Shown: piece after piece, positions 6,595 to 57,711 of the stretch
Layout of the letters: each line of letters opens with the position of its first letter
How positions within the stretch are numbered: position 1 is the first letter of the stretch
Assembly (NCBI RefSeq): GCF_012927305.1
Contig: NZ_JABBGH010000001.1
Span: forward strand, 1,674,001 to 1,738,000
Direction of reading: 5' to 3'
DNA length: 64,000 nucleotides
Source: Hymenobacter polaris
Lineage (GTDB): Bacteria > Bacteroidota > Bacteroidia > Cytophagales > Hymenobacteraceae
The notes under the pieces: generated by a model
Database searches by the model: none
What the model was told of the DNA's origin: nothing
The model's input: only the letters and a program-made list of their open reading frames with translations
Translations under genes and position numbers: made by a program

Positions 6595-6695
6595 AAAAAA
6601 GGCGGTCATGCTGAGCCCCGCGAAGCATCTCTACCACGCCGCTAGGGTATCGTCCGGTAGAGATGCTTCGGCAGGCTCAGCATGACCGCCTTTTT
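6595..6695. repeat. GTCATGCTGAGC-type palindromic element, copy 1 (chimeric arms)
   Basis: An inverted repeat bounded by an A run and a T run. Its outer arms are GGCGGTCATGCTGAGCC and the complement near 6673-6690; the inner arms GAAGCATCTCTACC and GGTAGAGATGCTTC also pair. The middle parts differ (CCCGC on the left, GGCAGG on the right), so the arms are not exact mirrors. The first 46 bases are identical to the left half of the copy at 53653. It lies upstream of the sigma gene and downstream of the LytTR regulator gene, where it could also end transcription. Confidence 0.9.
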
Positions 6696-11852: not shown

Positions 11853-11953
11853 AAACGAACGTCATGCTGAGCGCAGCCGAAGCATCTCTACCGCGTCGTT
11901 CGGGCGACGTTCGGCAGAGATGCTTCAGCTGCGCTCAGCATGACGTTCGTTTT
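11853..11953. repeat. GTCATGCTGAGC-type palindromic element, copy 2
   Basis: The outer arms (AAACGAACGTCATGCTGAGC and its complement ending near 11952) enclose inner arms GAAGCATCTCTACC and a diverged partner GGCAGAGATGCTTC. It sits between two converging genes and ends in T's on both strands, so it can serve as a shared terminator. Confidence 0.92.
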
Positions 11954-15345: not shown

Positions 15346-15463
15346 AAATAGTGCTTAAAACAGGCGGTTGTGCTGAGCTTGTCGAAGCATCTCTACCAAA
15401 CAATACGGAGTGGTAGAGATGCTTCGACAGGCTCAGCATGGCCGCCTGTTTTAAGCACTATTT
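15346..15463. repeat. GTCATGCTGAGC-type palindromic element, copy 3 with long private arms
   Basis: The core arms (GCTTGTCGAAGCATCTCTACC against its complement on the right) have an extra 22-base outer segment, AAATAGTGCTTAAAACAGGC plus two G's, mirrored exactly at 15442-15463. The core is slightly diverged (TTGTGCTGAGC and GCTCAGCATGG). It lies between converging genes. Confidence 0.92.
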
Positions 15464-34050: not shown

Positions 34051-34057
34051 ACCACTC

Positions 34058-34143
34058 AGGACGTCATGCTGAGCCTGCCGAAGCATCTCTACCGCGCCGT
34101 ATTGTTCGGTAGAGATGCTTCGGCAGGCTCAGCATGACGTCCT
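34058..34143. repeat. GTCATGCTGAGC-type palindromic element, perfect 37-bp arms
   Basis: Arms 34058-34094 and 34107-34143 are exact complements, with a 12-base loop. Outer AGGAC, then GTCATGCTGAGCCTGCCGAA and GCATCTCTACCG. It fills nearly the whole gap between two converging genes. Confidence 0.95.
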
Positions 34144-34146
34144 ATC

Positions 34147-34554
34147 TTATTGTTTTACTTCCTGGCAAAGCTCCACCAATACGCCGCCGGCGCTTTTGGG
34201 GTGCACAAAGCACACCAGCTTGTTGTCAGCGCCGCGCTTAGGGTGCTCGTTTAATAGCACGAAGCCTTCGGCGCGCAGCCGTGCCATTTCGGCCTCGATA
34301 TCATCGACTTCAAAAGCGACGTGGTGAATACCCTCGGGCTTCTTTTCCAGGAACTTGCTGATGGCGCTGTCGGGGCTGGTGCCGGCCAGCAGCTCAATTT
34401 TGGAGCCGCCGACCTGGAAGAAAACTGTATCAACAGCTTCACTAACAACGTGCTCGGTTTTGTAGGGTGGCTGACCCAGCAGGCGGGTGTAGAGGGCGGT
34501 GGCGGCGGGCAGGTCGCGCACGGCCAGGCCCAGGTGTTCGAGGTTGGTAAGCAT
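34147..34554 (-). CDS. mce: Methylmalonyl-CoA epimerase
   Basis: 135 residues, a VOC-fold protein. Two beta-alpha-beta halves: LEHLGLAVRDLPAATALYTR and GIHHVAFEVDDIEAEMARLR. Metal ligands expected in the family are His7, the Gln of FFQVGGSKIELL, His in GIHHVAF, and Glu in VLVELCQ; all are visible. It interconverts the (R)- and (S)-forms of methylmalonyl-CoA between propionyl-CoA carboxylase and the mutase. No mutase subunit lies nearby. The convergent neighbour is separated only by a palindromic element. Confidence 0.93.
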   Translation of the reverse strand: MLTNLEHLGLAVRDLPAATALYTRLLGQPPYKTEHVVSEAVDTVFFQVGGSKIELLAGTSPDSAISKFLEKKPEGIHHVAFEVDDIEAEMARLRAEGFVLLNEHPKRGADNKLVCFVHPKSAGGVLVELCQEVKQ

Positions 34555-36526: not shown

Positions 36527-36647
36527 AGAACGTCATGCTCATCTGGCGTCCGCTTGCCGAAGCATCTCTACCGCGCCCGTTGGGCAATCGTTCAACGATG
36601 CGGTAGAGATGCTTCGGCAAGCGGACGCCAGATGAGCATGACGTTCT
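36527..36647. repeat. Long-arm variant of the GTCATGCTGAGC family, perfect 48-bp arms
   Basis: Arms 36527-36574 and 36600-36647 are exact complements. The usual core is replaced by GTCATGCTCATCTGGCGTCC then GCTTGCCGAAGCATC, i.e. an insert between the GTCATGCT edge and the GAAGCATCTCTACC part. The same insert occurs in the right arm of the copy at 53641. Confidence 0.95.
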
Positions 36648-40875: not shown

Positions 40876-40973
40876 AGAACGTCATGCCGAGCTTGCGAGG
40901 AATCTCGCCTAGGCCTCCTAGAGGTCGTTCAGCGAAGCAAGCGAGATTCCTCGCAAGCTCGGCATGACGTTCT
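40876..40973. repeat. Palindromic element, subfamily C (GTCATGCCGAGC), perfect 33-bp arms
   Basis: Arms 40876-40908 and 40941-40973 are exact complements (AGAACGTCATGCCGAGCTTG, then CGAGGAATCTCGC), with a T run after. The 32-base loop contains CGCCTAGG. Located between the divergent esterase and ABC transporter genes. Confidence 0.92.
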
Positions 40974-41027
40974 TTTTGAGAGAACGCGCACGCAACCCTG
41001 ACAACGAACAACTGACCACTATACTGC

Positions 41028-47856: not shown

Positions 47857-47963
47857 GAAGAAGAACGTCATGCTGAGCCTGCCGAAGCATCTCTACCGCG
47901 CCGTTAGCCAATCGTTCAACGGCGTGGTAGAGATGCTTCGGCAGGCTCAGCATGACGTTCTTC
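47857..47963. repeat. GTCATGCTGAGC-type palindromic element, perfect 38-bp arms
   Basis: Arms 47857-47894 and 47926-47963 are exact complements; outer GAAGAAC, then GTCATGCTGAGCCTGCCGAA and GCATCTCTACC. Lies between the 5' end of the 47400 gene and the 3' end of hemE. Confidence 0.95.
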
Positions 47964-48011
47964 TCAGTTTTATTACTTCAGAAATACATCTAGTAGCTAT
48001 GTGCCGCCAAG

Positions 48012-49168: not shown

Positions 49169-49244
49169 TGGTGGCTCCGCTGGGATTCGAACCCAGGACC
49201 CGTACATTAAAAGTGTACTGCTCTACCAGCTGAGCTACAGAACC
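49169..49244 (-). tRNA. tRNA-Lys (anticodon UUU), CCA encoded
   Basis: 76 bases reading leftward. Acceptor GGTTCTG pairs with CGGAGCC (two G-U pairs). D arm GCTC...GAGC. Anticodon stem GTACA/TGTAC around CTTTTAA gives UUU. T arm CTGGG-TTCGAAT-CCCAG. Discriminator A and then CCA. This is the tRNA for AAA/AAG, a t6A37 substrate, which links it to the Sua5-type enzyme here. Confidence 0.97.
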
Positions 49245-50109: not shown

Positions 50110-50232
50110 GAGTAAAAAGGCGGTCATGCTGAGCCTGTCGAAGCATCTCTGCCGCGCAAGTAACTCCTGACGTTGGGGTTAGTAACGCGGGAGAGATGCT
50201 TCGACAGGCTCAGCATGACCGCCTTTTTACTC
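50110..50232. repeat. GTCATGCTGAGC-type palindromic element with slipped outer arm
   Basis: Arms 50110-50150 and 50192-50232 (41 bp) are complementary, outermost GAGTAAAAAGGCG. Before the left arm TGAGTAAA repeats imperfectly; the right flank (to about 50237) still pairs with GTAAATGAG if one 8-base unit is skipped. Loop 41 bases. Confidence 0.93.
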
Positions 50233-51035: not shown

Positions 51036-51337
51036 AAAGCCTAGGGGGAGAAGAACAAAAAGGACGCCCTAGGGCCCACCGGGGCCAGGCGCGCCGCAAA
51101 CCTACGCCCGGCCCCACCAAGCCTGAGGGGCTGGCGGCACCCTAGGGGCCGCCGCCTCGCTGCGCCGGGCGGCCGGCGCGCAAGCACGAATTTCTAGCCC
51201 AGGCGCTAATTGGTCGATTTATCGACTGAACTGGACTTTCTTTGCACGTACCTTTAAGGCGTGTGTACCAGGGCCATTTTAAGCCTGAATTCAGTACCTT
51301 ACCCTTTCACCTAGCCCTCACCTTCCCGCCCTCTTCT
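51036..51337. other. 302-base divergent intergenic region
   Basis: Between the SDR start and the GEVED gene start. Three CCTAGG motifs (51039, 51067, 51141). A small palindrome GTCGATTTATCGAC (51213-51226) precedes TTTCTTTG by 11 bases; it may be an operator for the secreted-protein gene. Confidence 0.5.
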
Positions 51338-53602
51338 ATGCTGCTAAAACTACGTTTCTGGGTAAGTGCACTCGGCGGGCTGCTGCCGGCCCTCGGGTGG
51401 GCGCAGTGCCCCGGCGCGGCCACCTGCACGCCCGGCGCGGCCTCGGCGGCCAGCTCGCTTACCTCGGTCTACCAGATGGGCATCTACAACGTGACGCTGG
51501 GCACCATCAACAACAGCACCGCCGGCTACACCGACGGCTACAAGGACTACAGCTGCACGGTGGGCACCAGCCTGACGGTGAGCACGGCCACGGCCATTAG
51601 CATCAAGAATGGCACCAAGGCCAACGAAAACGTGCGGGTGTGGATTGACTACAACAACGACGGCACCTTTGCGGGCAGCGAGCTGGCGTTTTCGTCGGAC
51701 AACAAGATGCTGCACACCGGCACCATTACGCCGCCGGCTACGGCCACCCTGGGCACCAAGCTGCGCATGCGGGTGGCTTCCGACTTTGCCGACCTGGCCG
51801 CGCCCACGGCCTGCGCCACCCCGCAATACTCGCAGGACGAGGACTACGCCGTGACGCTGGTGGCCAACGCCAGCCCGCCCACGGCCGCCTTCGGCACCGA
51901 CGTGACCACTACCTGCTCGGGCTGCGTGCAGTTTAGCGACCAGAGCGCCAACGGCCCCACCAGCTGGCGCTGGAACTTTGGCGACAACACCAGCAGCACC
52001 GCCCAAAGCCCGCAGCACTGCTACACCGCCGCCGGCACCTACCAAGTGACGCTGACGGCCACCAACGCGGCGGGCAGCAGCACCAGCGCCGCTACCACCA
52101 TCACCTACAACCCCGCCCTGCCTGCCGCCACTACCTGCACTGGCCTGGCCGCCAGCAGCTACTGCTGCAACTACGGCATCACGCTGGTGCGGCTAGGCAG
52201 CATCAGCAACGCTTCGGCCGATGGCAGCGCGGGCTACCAGGATTTTACTTGCGCCCAGCGCACCAGCCTGGCGGTGGGCGTGGGCTACCAGCTGGCCGTT
52301 TCGACGGGCGGCACCCTGCGGCACGATACCCGCGCCTGGCTCGACCTGAACAACGACGGCGCCTTTACCAGCAACGAAAAGGTATTTGAGGCGCTGAACA
52401 CGGCTAACCCCAGCGCCACCATCACGGTGCCGGGCACGGCTGTGCTGAACCAACCGCTGCGCCTGCGCGTGGTGGCCGACGCGGCGGGCACCAACCCCCA
52501 GCCCTGCACCGCCCCCACCTCGGGCCAGGTGGAAGACTACAGCGTGACGGCGGTGCCCAACGTGAATCCGCCGGTGGCGGCCTTCACCTCAAATTACGTG
52601 GCCGGGGTGTGCACCACGCCCGCCAACACCTACACCTTCAGCGACCAAAGCAGCAACGGGCCCACCAGCTGGCAGTGGGCGGTGAGCCCCAGTGCGGGCG
52701 TATCGTTTGTGAACGGCACCTCGGCCACTTCCCAAAACCCGCAGATTGTCTTCGCCACCGCCGGCACCTACTCGGTGGCGCTGACGGCCACCAATGCCAA
52801 CGGCAGCAACACGCTCACCCAGCCCAACTACCTACAAGTGCAGGTGCCTTGCCTGACCTACTGCACCAGCAACGGCGGCTACGCCAGCGGCGGCACCAGC
52901 AGCTTCTGGATTACGAACGTGGCCGTGGCGGCCCCGGCGGGCGGCACGGCTTTCGGCAATACCTCGGGCAACGCCACGGGCGGCTACGCGCTCTACAGCA
53001 GCCCGACCATAGCGCTGCAGCCGGGCGGCAGCCAAACCCTGACGGTGACTATCAATTCGAGCCTGCTGCACCGCACCGCCGTCTGGATTGACTACAACCG
53101 CGACGGCATCTTCTCCAACGGCACCGGCAACGGCGGCGAGCTGGTGTACAACGGCACCGGCAATCTGCAAAACAGCGCTACCACTACTATCGCCGTGCCC
53201 AGCAACCTGGCCGCCACCCGCATGCGCGTGGTGGTAGCCCTCAGCAGCAGCACGGCCACGGCCTGCGCCACCAACTTTGGCGAGGGCGAGGTGGAAGACT
53301 ACCTGGTGGTGCCCAGCACGGCCCTGGCCACCCAGGCCAGCCAGGCGCTGCCCGCCCTCACCCTCAGCCCCAACCCCACCGATAGCGACGTGCAGGTGCA
53401 GGTGAGCGAGGCCAGTGCCAACGGCCGCTACGCCGTGGTGGTGGAAAACGTGCTGGGCGCCCAGCTGCTAGCCCAAGACCTGCGCCTGACCACCGGCGCG
53501 CCCGCCACCCTGCGCCTGGCCGCGCTGCCGGCCGGCCTCTACCTAGTGCGCCTCACCAACGAGCAGGGCCAGACGGCGCTGCGCCGCATCGTGCGGCAGT
53601 AA
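51338..53602 (+). CDS. Secreted GEVED/PKD protein with T9SS type A sorting tail
   Basis: 754 residues from ATG at 51338, which begins a signal peptide (MLLKLRFWVSALGGLLPALG, cut after WAQ). Three GEVED domains (recognised by WIDYNNDGTF, WLDLNNDGAF, WIDYNRDGIF and the closing DEDYAVTLV / VEDYSVTAV / VEDYLVVPS) alternate with two PKD domains (FSDQSANGPTSWRWNFGD and FSDQSSNGPTSWQWAVSP). The last ~80 residues are a type A sorting domain (LTLSPNPTDSDVQVQV, then LPAGLYLVRLTNEQG). It should be exported through the type 9 system and fixed to the cell surface, probably as an adhesin or polymer-binding protein; no enzyme domain is seen. Confidence 0.93.
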   Translation: MLLKLRFWVSALGGLLPALGWAQCPGAATCTPGAASAASSLTSVYQMGIYNVTLGTINNSTAGYTDGYKDYSCTVGTSLTVSTATAISIKNGTKANENVRVWIDYNNDGTFAGSELAFSSDNKMLHTGTITPPATATLGTKLRMRVASDFADLAAPTACATPQYSQDEDYAVTLVANASPPTAAFGTDVTTTCSGCVQFSDQSANGPTSWRWNFGDNTSSTAQSPQHCYTAAGTYQVTLTATNAAGSSTSAATTITYNPALPAATTCTGLAASSYCCNYGITLVRLGSISNASADGSAGYQDFTCAQRTSLAVGVGYQLAVSTGGTLRHDTRAWLDLNNDGAFTSNEKVFEALNTANPSATITVPGTAVLNQPLRLRVVADAAGTNPQPCTAPTSGQVEDYSVTAVPNVNPPVAAFTSNYVAGVCTTPANTYTFSDQSSNGPTSWQWAVSPSAGVSFVNGTSATSQNPQIVFATAGTYSVALTATNANGSNTLTQPNYLQVQVPCLTYCTSNGGYASGGTSSFWITNVAVAAPAGGTAFGNTSGNATGGYALYSSPTIALQPGGSQTLTVTINSSLLHRTAVWIDYNRDGIFSNGTGNGGELVYNGTGNLQNSATTTIAVPSNLAATRMRVVVALSSSTATACATNFGEGEVEDYLVVPSTALATQASQALPALTLSPNPTDSDVQVQVSEASANGRYAVVVENVLGAQLLAQDLRLTTGAPATLRLAALPAGLYLVRLTNEQGQTALRRIVRQ

Positions 53603-53640: not shown

Positions 53641-53765
53641 CGGTCATGCTGAAAAAAGGCGGTCATGCTGAGCCCCGCGAAGCATCTCTACCACGCCATT
53701 CGAGTTCCGTTCAACGATGCGGTAGAGATGCTTCGACAAGCGGACGCCAGATGAGCATGACGTTA
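53641..53765. repeat. Chimeric palindromic element of the GTCATGCTGAGC family
   Basis: The left half (53653-53698) is identical for 46 bases to that of the copy at 6595; the right half (from about 53710, TTCAACGATGCGGTAGAGAT on) follows the long-arm copy at 36527, including AAGCGGACGCCAGATGAGC. A partial extra edge CGGTCATGCTG stands at 53641. The arms therefore pair only at the inner and outermost ends. Confidence 0.93.
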
Positions 53766-53846
53766 CTTTTCCTTTTATAGCACCCAGCGGCCCTAGGGCA
53801 CCGCGCGCGACTTACTCTTCTGCAAAACTCTCATCCTCCAGTTTCT

Positions 53847-56800
53847 ATGCTACTACGTTTACTTGCGCGGGGACACTGGCTGGCGCTGCTGCTGGTGCTG
53901 CTGGCCGGCGGGCCGGCGGCGGCCACCCACCTGCTGGGCGGCGAAATGACCTACCGCTACCTCGACAGCAACGGCCCCACGGCCGCCCCGGTGCACTACG
54001 AGATAACCGTCACGATTTACAACAACGCGCTGGCCGGCGCGGCCCAGCCCAACACCGACGCGCTGGTGGGTATTTACGACCTGGCTACGGGCGCCAAAAT
54101 CACGCTGGTTTCGGGCGTGAACGTGGTAGCGAACTCGGGCGCGGTGGTGAGCAACGGCTCGCTGGATATTAACTACTACACCATCTCGCGCACGCTCACG
54201 CCGTCCGTGCCGGCGGGCTGCACCGTGCAGGGGCCGTCCCAGCCGTTTAAGCTGCAAAAGTTTACGGCCCAGGTATACCTGCCGGCCACCTCGCTTAGCG
54301 GCTTCTACGCCGTGTTTACCCGCACCGCCCGCAACGTGGACATTACCAACGAGGTGACCACGGGCAACAACCAGCCCCTGACGCTCTACACCACCCTAGC
54401 CCCCCCGCTGCGGCCCAACCGCTCGCCGGTGTTCTCGGATACGGCCGTGGCCATTGTGTGCCAGGGCGATACCACCATCAGCCTCAACAACGCCGTGGAT
54501 GCCGACGGCGACCGCCTGGTGTACTCGTTTGGCACGCCCTACGGCACGTTTGCCTCGTCGGGCCAAAACCTGCCCACCCAGTTTCCGCCCCTGCCCAACC
54601 CGCTGACGTACTACGGCGGCTACTCGGCGGCCAACCCCTTCGGCCCCGGCGCGGGCAACTTCGCCCTGCTGAACGCCAGCACCGGCGTGGCCCGCTACGG
54701 CGCCCTCACCCAGGGCAAGTACGTGGTGGCGGTGGACGTGCAGGAGTACCGCACCATCAACGGGCGCGAGGTGCTGATTGGCACTACCCGGCGCGACTTG
54801 CAGCTGATTGTGGCGGCCTGCCCCAGCACGGTGGCGCCGGTGCTGCCGGCGGCCATTACCCTGCCTAGGGCCTACACCATCGAGGCGGGCCAGAGCCTCA
54901 CCATTCCACTTTCAGCCACTCAAAGCGCGGGCCACGCCCTGCTGATGACCGTGAACAGCGCCCTGCTCGACGGCACGGGCGGCCTGAACGCCACCTTCAA
55001 CGGCAACCCCGGCACCGTGGCGGCGGGCTCACTCACGGGCACGGCCACGGCTACCGGCAACGGCACGGTGGCGGGCAACTTTGTATATAATTCGACCTGC
55101 GGCGAGGCCCGCGCCAACCCCTACGACGTGGCTGTGACGGTGAAGGACCAGGCCTGCGGCGGCAAAACCGTGGCCGACGTATTCCGCATCACCGTGACGC
55201 TGCCCAGCGGCCCCACCGCCATTGCCGGCGACCTGGTGGCCTGCGACCAAACCGCCCTGCACACCTACACGGCCAGCGGCGGCACCGCGCCCACGGTGCG
55301 CTGGCGGGTGGTGGGCGGCACCATCGTGGGCAGCGCCACCGCCAATCCCGTGCAGGTGCGCTGGACGGCGGCCAGCGGCACCATCATCGCCAAGGGCATC
55401 TCGCAGTACGGCTGCCTCACCGACTCGGTGAGCCAGGGCGTGCAGGTGGTGCCGGCTCCTAGCCTCACAGTGGCCGGCAACCTCACCATCTGCCAGGGCA
55501 GCAGCACCAGCATCACGGTGAGCGGGGCGGGCCCGGCCTACACCGTGGCGGGCGGGCCGGTTTCGGGCTCGGGCAGCGTGTTTACCCTCAGCCCCACCCA
55601 AACCACGACCTACACCGTCACAAGCGTGCAGCTGACGGCCAACGGCTGCGCCAGCACCGCCCAGGTAACGGTGAAGGTGAATCCCGCCCCGGCGGCCGAG
55701 CCCATTGTGGGCACCACCTCGGTGTGCCCCACGGTGGGCGGCATTGCCTACGCCATCCAGAACCCGGCCAACCCCAGCTACCAGTGGACCGTGACGGGCG
55801 GCACCCTTGCCAGCGGCCAGGGCACGGCCAGCATTACCGTAAACTGGGGCGCGGCCGGCACCGGCACCGTGAGCGCGGTGAGCGTGAGTGCCCTAGGGTG
55901 TCCCTCGCCGGCCACGACGCTGGCCGTCACCATCAACCAGCTGCTGCAAACGGTGAAGCCCAGCGGCCCCGGCAGTGTGTGCCAGGCCGATGGGCCCTAC
56001 ACCTACACCACCCCGGCCGTGAATGGGTCATCGTTTGCCTGGCAGCTGTTTGGCTCGGCGCAGGGCACGCTCACCAGCACCGGTAACAGCACCAGCGTCC
56101 AGTTTGCCACGGCCGGCGTGGCCAAGCTGGTGGTGACGCAAACCAGCAACCCGGCCGGTGGCATCTGCCGCGGCGTCAGCGACACGCTCTACATTACCGT
56201 GAAGCCCTCGCCTAGTACGGCGCTAGTCATCCAGGGCCCCGACCGCTTCTGCGTGAACAGCGGCGCCCAGACCTACACCCTAGGGGGTGCCAGCGGCTCG
56301 ACCTACGCCTGGCAGCTGAATGGCGTGGCGCTGGCCAGCACCGGCAGCAGCGTGAGCATTGCGGCCAGCACGGCCGTGGGCACTTACACCCTCACCGCGC
56401 GCGAAACCAACAGCGGGGGCTGCGCGGGTCCGCTCTACACCAAGTCGTTCACGGTAGACCCTAGGCCCGGCGCCATCACCATTAGCGGGCCGCGCTTCGT
56501 GTGCCCGGCCACCCGCACGCTCACCTACGCTGTGGCCAACGCCGCTAGCACCAGCACTTTCCAGTGGGCGGTGACGGGCGGCACGGTTACGGCCGGCCAG
56601 GGCACGGCTAGCGTCACCGTCAACTTCCCCACTACCCTAACTGCCAATGCCACCGTGAGCGTGACCGAAACCTCGCAGTACGGCTGCGCGGGCACGGCCG
56701 TAGCCGCTACTGTGGTGCCCGACAACGCGCAGGCGCCGCAGCTGACGCTGGCCTCGGTAGTAGCCACTGACAATACCAAGGTCACGCTCACCTTCAGCGT

Positions 56801-57575
56801 GGCCAATGCCGCTGCCACGCCCAATCAGGTGCAGGTATTGCGGCGCGAGGCGGGTAGCACCGGCACCTACACCACCGTGGGCACCGTAGCCGCCACCGCC
56901 ACCACGTACGTGGACGCCACCGCCAACGCCGCCCAAACCGCCTACCAGTACAGCCTGGCCCTCACCAACGGCTGCGGCGACCTGCTGCCCGGCACCACGC
57001 CCCAAACCACCGTGCTGGTGCGGGCCGTGGCCGTGCCCGGCAACCCCAGCACCCCCCGCGACCAGGGCGCCTCGAACCTGAGCTGGACGGCCTACGACGG
57101 ATTTACGGTAGCCAACTACCTGGTGTATAAGCAAAACGATGCCGGCGGCTACGCCCTGGTGGCGACCCTAGGGGCCAACGTGTTCAGCTACACCTCGGCC
57201 AACGGCGGGCAGGGCTTTTCGCAGTGCTTCCGGGTGGTGGCCGTGTCGGCGGCGGGGGCCAGCGCGGCGCTGCAGTCCAACTCCAACACGGCCTGCGCAG
57301 AGTTTACCAACGGCCTGGCGTTCTACAACATCATCACGCCCAACAACGACGGGCAGAACGACAAGCTCGAAATCCTGAACGTGAGCCTCTACCCCGGCAA
57401 CACCATGACGATTTTCAACCGCTGGGGCCGCCAGGTGTACTCGACCACCAACTACAACAACGACAGCAACTACTGGGGCGGCAACGACCCCAGCATCGCG
57501 GCGGGCGTGTACTACTACCTCTTCAAGCTGCCCAACGGCAGCACCACCAAGGGCTGGGTGGAGGTAGTGAAGTAA
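53847..57575 (+). CDS. Large secreted Ig/PKD-like protein with gliding-type (CHU/type B) C-terminus
   Basis: 1242 residues. Signal peptide (LALLLVLLAGGPAAATHLLG). An N-terminal all-beta domain follows (GGEMTYRYLDSNGPTAAP; FGTPYGTFASSGQNLP), then six or more Ig/PKD-like repeats, recurring as PTVRWRVVGGTIVGSATANP, PSYQWTVTGGTLASGQGTAS, STFQWAVTGGTVTAGQGTAS with SYAW.LNG type units between, then a fibronectin-like part, and a CHU_C/gliding-motility-associated C-terminal domain (AFYNIITPNNDGQNDKLEIL, then TIFNRWGRQVYSTTNYNND, ending YYYLFKLPNGSTTKGWVEVV). This is a T9SS type B cargo tail. Likely a surface adhesin. The repeated VTGG units are internal DNA repeats. Confidence 0.93.
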   Translation: MLLRLLARGHWLALLLVLLAGGPAAATHLLGGEMTYRYLDSNGPTAAPVHYEITVTIYNNALAGAAQPNTDALVGIYDLATGAKITLVSGVNVVANSGAVVSNGSLDINYYTISRTLTPSVPAGCTVQGPSQPFKLQKFTAQVYLPATSLSGFYAVFTRTARNVDITNEVTTGNNQPLTLYTTLAPPLRPNRSPVFSDTAVAIVCQGDTTISLNNAVDADGDRLVYSFGTPYGTFASSGQNLPTQFPPLPNPLTYYGGYSAANPFGPGAGNFALLNASTGVARYGALTQGKYVVAVDVQEYRTINGREVLIGTTRRDLQLIVAACPSTVAPVLPAAITLPRAYTIEAGQSLTIPLSATQSAGHALLMTVNSALLDGTGGLNATFNGNPGTVAAGSLTGTATATGNGTVAGNFVYNSTCGEARANPYDVAVTVKDQACGGKTVADVFRITVTLPSGPTAIAGDLVACDQTALHTYTASGGTAPTVRWRVVGGTIVGSATANPVQVRWTAASGTIIAKGISQYGCLTDSVSQGVQVVPAPSLTVAGNLTICQGSSTSITVSGAGPAYTVAGGPVSGSGSVFTLSPTQTTTYTVTSVQLTANGCASTAQVTVKVNPAPAAEPIVGTTSVCPTVGGIAYAIQNPANPSYQWTVTGGTLASGQGTASITVNWGAAGTGTVSAVSVSALGCPSPATTLAVTINQLLQTVKPSGPGSVCQADGPYTYTTPAVNGSSFAWQLFGSAQGTLTSTGNSTSVQFATAGVAKLVVTQTSNPAGGICRGVSDTLYITVKPSPSTALVIQGPDRFCVNSGAQTYTLGGASGSTYAWQLNGVALASTGSSVSIAASTAVGTYTLTARETNSGGCAGPLYTKSFTVDPRPGAITISGPRFVCPATRTLTYAVANAASTSTFQWAVTGGTVTAGQGTASVTVNFPTTLTANATVSVTETSQYGCAGTAVAATVVPDNAQAPQLTLASVVATDNTKVTLTFSVANAAATPNQVQVLRREAGSTGTYTTVGTVAATATTYVDATANAAQTAYQYSLALTNGCGDLLPGTTPQTTVLVRAVAVPGNPSTPRDQGASNLSWTAYDGFTVANYLVYKQNDAGGYALVATLGANVFSYTSANGGQGFSQCFRVVAVSAAGASAALQSNSNTACAEFTNGLAFYNIITPNNDGQNDKLEILNVSLYPGNTMTIFNRWGRQVYSTTNYNNDSNYWGGNDPSIAAGVYYYLFKLPNGSTTKGWVEVVK

Positions 57576-57596: not shown

Positions 57597-57711
57597 GTGG
57601 GTAAGTAAGAACGTCATGCTGAGCGAAGCCGAAGCATCTCTACCGCATCGTCCGGGTGACGTTCTGTAGAGATGCTTCAACAAGCTCAGCATGACGTTCT
57701 TACTTACCCAC
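57597..57711. repeat. GTCATGCTGAGC-type palindromic element with extended outer arms
   Basis: The outer arms GTGGGTAAGTAAGAAC plus GTCATGCTGAG at left are matched by their complement at right (57685-57711). The inner arms GAAGCATCTCTAC / GTAGAGATGCTTC pair; the middle does not (GCGAAGCC against AACAAG), so the copy is partly chimeric. Between converging genes. Confidence 0.9.

Follow-up and report, generated by a model that had tools for sequence, protein, structure and literature searches.

A mixed-arm copy of a REP-like palindrome in Hymenobacter polaris, unique in its pairing of arms and ordinary in kind

The palindromic element at positions 53641 to 53777 of the analyzed window (a 64,000-nucleotide stretch of the Hymenobacter polaris genome) is a mixed-arm copy, or REP "heterodimer," of a Hymenobacter REP-like palindrome. 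It is real and has a unique pairing of arms, and it is ordinary in kind: mixed-arm copies are not rare in this family, and this hybrid represents no inherited subtype and no special event. It probably arose when one arm was replaced; in the family at large, replication would normally keep the two arms alike by using one as the source of the other. The points worth following are less the single hybrid, which is ordinary within the family, than the homogenization of arms and the extension of palindromes into the flanking DNA. REP-like palindromes are found widely. Di Nocera et al. 2013 (PMC3733652) left open what keeps the arms paired and how REPs without a transposase persist. With hundreds of copies whose arms can be scored separately, with hybrids standing in for natural intermediates, and with sister species to compare, one can test whether one arm rewrites the other.

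Structure of the element

The element lies between two genes transcribed in the same direction and consists of the following parts:

51242-53602, + strand: upstream ORF, 786 aa; the element begins 50 nt past its stop codon
53641-53652, + strand: leftover or duplicated left edge CGGTCATGCTGA (read directly; a similar edge duplication is at L088:15783)
53652-53657, + strand: A-run outside the left arm, a U-tract on the other strand (read directly)
53658-53678, + strand: left arm, GGCGG / no insert / CCCCGC
53679-53692, + strand: conserved core GAAGCATCTCTACC
53693-53720, + strand: 28-nt loop ACGCCATTCGAGTTCCGTTCAACGATGC, both ends of which match the 17-nt loop of a matched insert-type copy (G000:C3:384614)
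53721-53734, - strand: inverted conserved core
53735-53764, - strand: right arm, CTTGTC / CATCTGGCGTCCG insert / TAACG edge
53765-53777, + strand: T-rich edge outside the right arm
53847-57575, + strand: downstream ORF of 1242 aa; it has relatives at 31 loci and keeps its synteny with the upstream ORF in related genomes

A preliminary description of this DNA had presented the element as a chimera of two arm types, and the underlying identities were confirmed. On the left, positions 53652-53697 (one base before the 53653-53698 originally given) are identical to 6595-6640 over 46 bases, with different bases on either side. Much of this identity is shared core, and the left type can be told only by the outer GGCGG, by the CCCCGC spacer, and by the absence of the insert. 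On the right, TTCAACGATGCGGTAGAGAT begins at 53710 and at 36591 and opens a 55-base match, GCGGACGCCAGATGAGC included, with a single difference (GACAAG versus GGCAAG). The leftover edge CGGTCATGCTGA does stand outside the left arm, and the arms disagree in three modules (GGCGG, no insert, and CCCCGC on the left versus TAACG, insert, and CTTGTC on the right). Unequal arms, likewise described earlier, were also seen in the copies at 6595 (CCCCGC versus CCTGCC) and 57630 (CGAAGCC versus CTTGTT). The hybrid itself is therefore real. The switch point cannot be placed at mid-element, as it falls in a stretch common to both types, which comprises the core and the start of the loop. At its ends, ACGCCATTC...AACGATGC, the loop agrees with that of the matched insert-type copy at C3:384614, so the loop and the right arm may form one unit and the left arm alone may have been replaced.

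The element had also been taken to show directly that distant copies exchange sequence. That claim was not supported: the C-terminal part of the upstream gene and the N-terminal part of the downstream gene are adjacent, with no repeat between them, in Hymenobacter sp. UV11, H. ginkgonis, and sp. BRD67, and because both flanking genes remain neighbors in these relatives, a crossover joining two distant loci is unlikely. Close relatives yielded no example of this locus in another state.

The repeat family

The Hymenobacter repeat is a REP-like palindrome of approximately 90 to 120 bp that consists of an outer box, an optional CATCTGGCGTCCG insert, a spacer of 5 to 7 bases, the core GAAGCATCTCTACC, and a loop of 13 to 39 bases, followed by the same modules in reverse. 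The core GAAGCATCTCTACC...GGTAGAGATGCTTC has 287 forward and 285 reverse exact matches in the genome and 18 in the window (0.15 in shuffled sequences). It was found in all 37 Hymenobacter genomes searched, with 131 to 161 forward matches in four others and fewer elsewhere, and was absent from 22 genomes of other genera of the order. Arm statistics were drawn from 1.66 Mb of the 5.59-Mb genome, taken in stretches, in which 168 of 190 core entries were paired head to head. Complete copies stand apart: none of 97 spacings is below 600 bp, except for one tandem duplication of 82 bp that comprises the left part of a copy and its flank (L073:70-260).

The related copies in the window are as follows:

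6595-6695: left arm identical to that of the element under study
11857-11951: related copy
15358-15453: related copy
34054-34149: related copy
36530-36647: insert in both arms
47858-47965: related copy
50114-50225: palindrome reaches into the flanking DNA
57601-57710: palindrome extends 17 nt, counted from the outer box of the arm

A search of the window for known RNA families returned only a tRNA at 49172-49244, and no literature on Hymenobacter palindromic repeats, nor any relevant paper in a search with the motif, was found.

Copies lie a median of 8 nt past a stop codon (159 copies with callable neighbors in 1.66 Mb, neighboring genes being called as long ORFs only); on the same gene calls, 39% of them are between convergent genes, 58% between codirectional genes, and 3% between divergent genes, the background values being 21, 59, and 20%. 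At least 5 A residues are found in the adjoining 10 nt at 123 of 164 left edges, and the right edges carry the corresponding T-runs (132 of 162). What the sequence displays is a hairpin flanked by an A-run and, at the opposite end, a T-run, located near stop codons and rare between divergent genes; such copies are predicted to act as two-way transcription terminators. In these respects they resemble bidirectional intrinsic terminators, which also combine a stable hairpin, an A-run before it, and a T-run after it just downstream of stop codons. The Hymenobacter palindrome differs in being a repeated sequence with stems far longer than termination needs, some of which run from stop codon to stop codon.

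Relation to known repeat systems

One close likeness is to the CGTC-tagged REPs, which are reported in Bacteroidetes; heterodimers have been described in other REP families (PMC3733652). Shared features include a stem starting with AT, the predominance of head-to-head dimers, both homo- and heterodimers, the position after genes, and, as far as the Y1_Tnp family is concerned, the lack of a dedicated transposase. The terminal CGTC box is a partial likeness: the outer boxes end in CG-TC in roughly two-thirds of the arms and in GG-TC in most others, including the left arm of the present element, so that GGTC replaces CGTC in about a third. CGTC-tagged units have a stem of 8 to 9 bp, a loop of 4 to 5 nt, and a CCA tail (PMC3733652). 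Neither such a stem and loop nor the CCA tail was seen in the Hymenobacter repeat, in which the stem of a single unit is limited to 5 perfect pairs (ATGCT/AGCAT) followed by G-A mismatches, the tail is CTC, and the two units of a dimer fold into one long hairpin with modular arms.

The GTAG REPs and REPINs mobilized by RAYTs (PMC2817692, PMC3116915) likewise form hundreds of short palindromes between genes. They carry GTAG at the outer end, whereas the Hymenobacter repeat has it only inside the core (GGTAGAGATGC). A search of the genome for the Y1_Tnp (RAYT) family gave no matches, although control genomes did; with no Y1_Tnp present and with copy number uncorrelated with Y1 matches across 37 genomes (Spearman 0.19, P = 0.26), RAYT-driven mobility was rejected.

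Agreement between arms and hybrid copies

Within a copy, the two arms agree far more often than expected by chance. The spacer is the same in 109 of 162 copies (shuffle mean, 27.8; maximum, 44), the insert state in 155 (mean, 126; maximum, 137), and the outer edge in 114 (mean, 34; maximum, 50). All three modules are equal in 82 of the 162 (4.7 expected; maximum, 11), so approximately half of the copies are mismatched somewhere. Single-base differences between arms are common.

The insert is confined to one arm in 7 of these 162 copies; in exact pattern searches of the whole genome, 17 copies have it in one arm and ∼26 in both, these counts being lower bounds because of the strict patterns used. 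The 17 hybrids all differ in their combination of modules. In at least 7 of them, L257 and L264 included, matched outer edges surround a mismatched inside, and the arms of L257 differ by the insert only. Such copies mark the hybrids as patchworks rather than products of half-and-half exchange. Half-element insertion, the alternative suggested earlier, could still apply to the present element.

The same searches disposed of the view that the element is an ordinary subtype with a fixed pairing of arms, which would have made it a normal member and no fresh chimera. The left/right pairing of the element (53641-53765) occurs once in the genome and the hybrids all differ, which, for exact matches in this genome, refutes that view and leaves it with a negligible probability; nothing was found in its favor.

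Comparison of sister species

Orthologous loci were compared between genomes G020 and G005 (∼95% identical) and between G024 and G142 (∼90% identical). At one locus (L192/L208), the insert is found in both arms in G005 and in neither arm in G020. Single changes common to both arms were seen at L189/L206, L157/L230, L165/L244, L170/L242, and L178/L231, and multibase changes plus an indel affect both arms at L171/L237. Changes of both arms together at one locus are what quasipalindrome template switching would predict, and these alignments contain them. Over all arm alignments, flank columns included, concerted change was seen in 33 columns and one-sided change in 103, and many of the one-sided columns belong to the flank.

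Other differences between the sister genomes concern whole elements. Collapsed short forms of ∼36 nt, joined at ATGCT/AGCAT repeats, stand where the sister has a full palindrome (L218, L213, L219, L210, L238, L239, L243, and L245); these are either deletions or ancestral single units. At four orthologous loci, the same gene spacer holds palindromes of different families (GAAGCATCTC versus GAAGGACC, at L241, L232, L247, and L228 versus L155, L159, L167, and L169), the different family reading GTCATCCTGAGC...GAAGGACC. A clean empty site with a direct target-site duplication, as expected of a DNA-transposon MITE, was not found in the two sister pairs; spacer DNA was replaced as a whole.

Palindromes extended into the flanks

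In about 20% of the copies in the H. polaris genome, the palindrome continues for 15 to 41 nt outward from the outer box, compared to 0.4% of shuffled arm pairs. Extensions of at least 15 nt were found in 31 copies in this genome and in none of 62 in four other genomes; an inverted copy of the flank beyond the repeat, a further expectation of template switching, is thus seen in this genome only. In the stretches examined, extensions run mostly through locus-unique sequence, and since their 13-mers occur mostly at their own locus only, nested older repeats were rejected as their source. Where the neighboring genes are convergent, the extensions tend to run out close to the stop codons; on either side, they rarely enter coding sequence.

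In the same genome, some spacers between convergent genes form a single palindrome that spans the whole distance between the two stop codons, whether they contain the repeat or not (9 of 160 convergent spacers, against 0 of 133 divergent ones; examples are L048:18562-18692, L041:18515-18573, L064:2244-2439, L099:19209, and L032:14529). The one at L041:18515 lacks the repeat, and shuffled spacers never reach such a score. Loss of the hairpin nuclease SbcCD was rejected as the cause of long palindromes, since both this genome and each of the 16 congeners searched encode SbcD.

Origin of the mixed-arm copy

The preferred and probable explanation is that one arm was replaced. A hairpin formed during replication would let the new strand template its second arm on its own first arm, a process (quasipalindrome template switching) that would make the arms alike and could extend the palindrome into the flank. 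In the element at 53641-53777, one arm, most likely the left, would have been replaced by sequence of another type and not yet evened out; the replacing arm could have come from another copy or through collapse and reinsertion. Template switching within a replication hairpin is a known process, described in E. coli tests, yeast, and RNA genes; it renders the arms of an inverted repeat identical and can copy flanking sequence as its reverse complement (PMC7202029, PMC8794818, PMC8604942), and both effects have counterparts in the Hymenobacter repeat. No report was found in the literature of its shaping a genome-wide bacterial repeat family. Matched arms, concerted multibase changes, and flank extension all fit this one process. 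Matched arms could also result from selection for base pairing, which covers single compensations but accounts less easily for module swaps and extensions. On the other hand, free copying would often carry extensions into coding sequence on the source side, which they rarely enter; their stop-to-stop limit needs selection in addition to template switching.

The strongest competitor is nonreciprocal gene conversion, by which an arm of a distant copy was written into the element with no crossover; it is possible, if somewhat less plausible than not. Both arm types exist intact elsewhere (the left at 6595, the right at 36530 and C3:384614), and the 17 hybrids show free mixing of donor types. However, the shared tracts measure merely 14 to 40 bp, which is short for RecA-type recombination, and hybrids with matched edges and a mismatched inside (L257 and L264) need more than one event.

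A more doubtful scenario starts from two side-by-side copies, or from a half copy inserted beside a collapsed older one, and has a deletion join the left arm of one to the right arm of the other, leaving CGGTCATGCTGA as a remnant. The edge at 53641-53652 would fit, as would the frequency of collapsed or half forms at sister loci (L212 and L205 in addition to those listed above), with joints at short direct repeats (such as ATGCT, AGCAT, or ACAA). Adjacent pairs are rare, however, the tandem duplication in L073 being the sole exception among the spacings measured, and although six copies have an outside GTCATG box nearby, only the present element and L088 have the look of a true edge duplication.

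It is improbable that the hybrid is simply a worn copy, with arms that drifted apart while selection on an RNA hairpin kept them roughly paired. The frequency of single-base arm differences is compatible with such wear, and the predicted RNA fold of the hybrid is indeed weak (-51 kcal/mol, versus -76 to -116 kcal/mol for other copies in the window). Yet its arms differ by whole modules, each intact elsewhere, and not by scattered changes, and the intact right-arm module at 53735-53761 largely refutes this reading.

Returning to one-arm replacement, a broader and distinctly tentative proposal would extend template switching to the family as a whole. In this RAYT-less repeat family, palindromes might be made, evened out, and lengthened by template switching during replication; some convergent spacers would thereby become stop-to-stop palindromes, and hybrids would be copies caught before arm correction.

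Other repeats

Several further repeats came to light. Two copies in G024:C3 (L173 and L176) have longer flanks that are alike and lie in opposite orientation, so that they represent a larger repeat containing the palindrome. A related palindrome of another family (GAGGAATCTC; GTCATGCCGAGCTTGCGAGGAATCTCG...), with matched arms, is located at 40877-40975 of the window. The sequence CCCTAGGG occurs 46 times in the window, compared to ∼2 expected from base composition, an excess already present in its inner 6- to 7-mers, and GATTTAACGGATT is another frequent 13-mer in the window and the other stretches examined.
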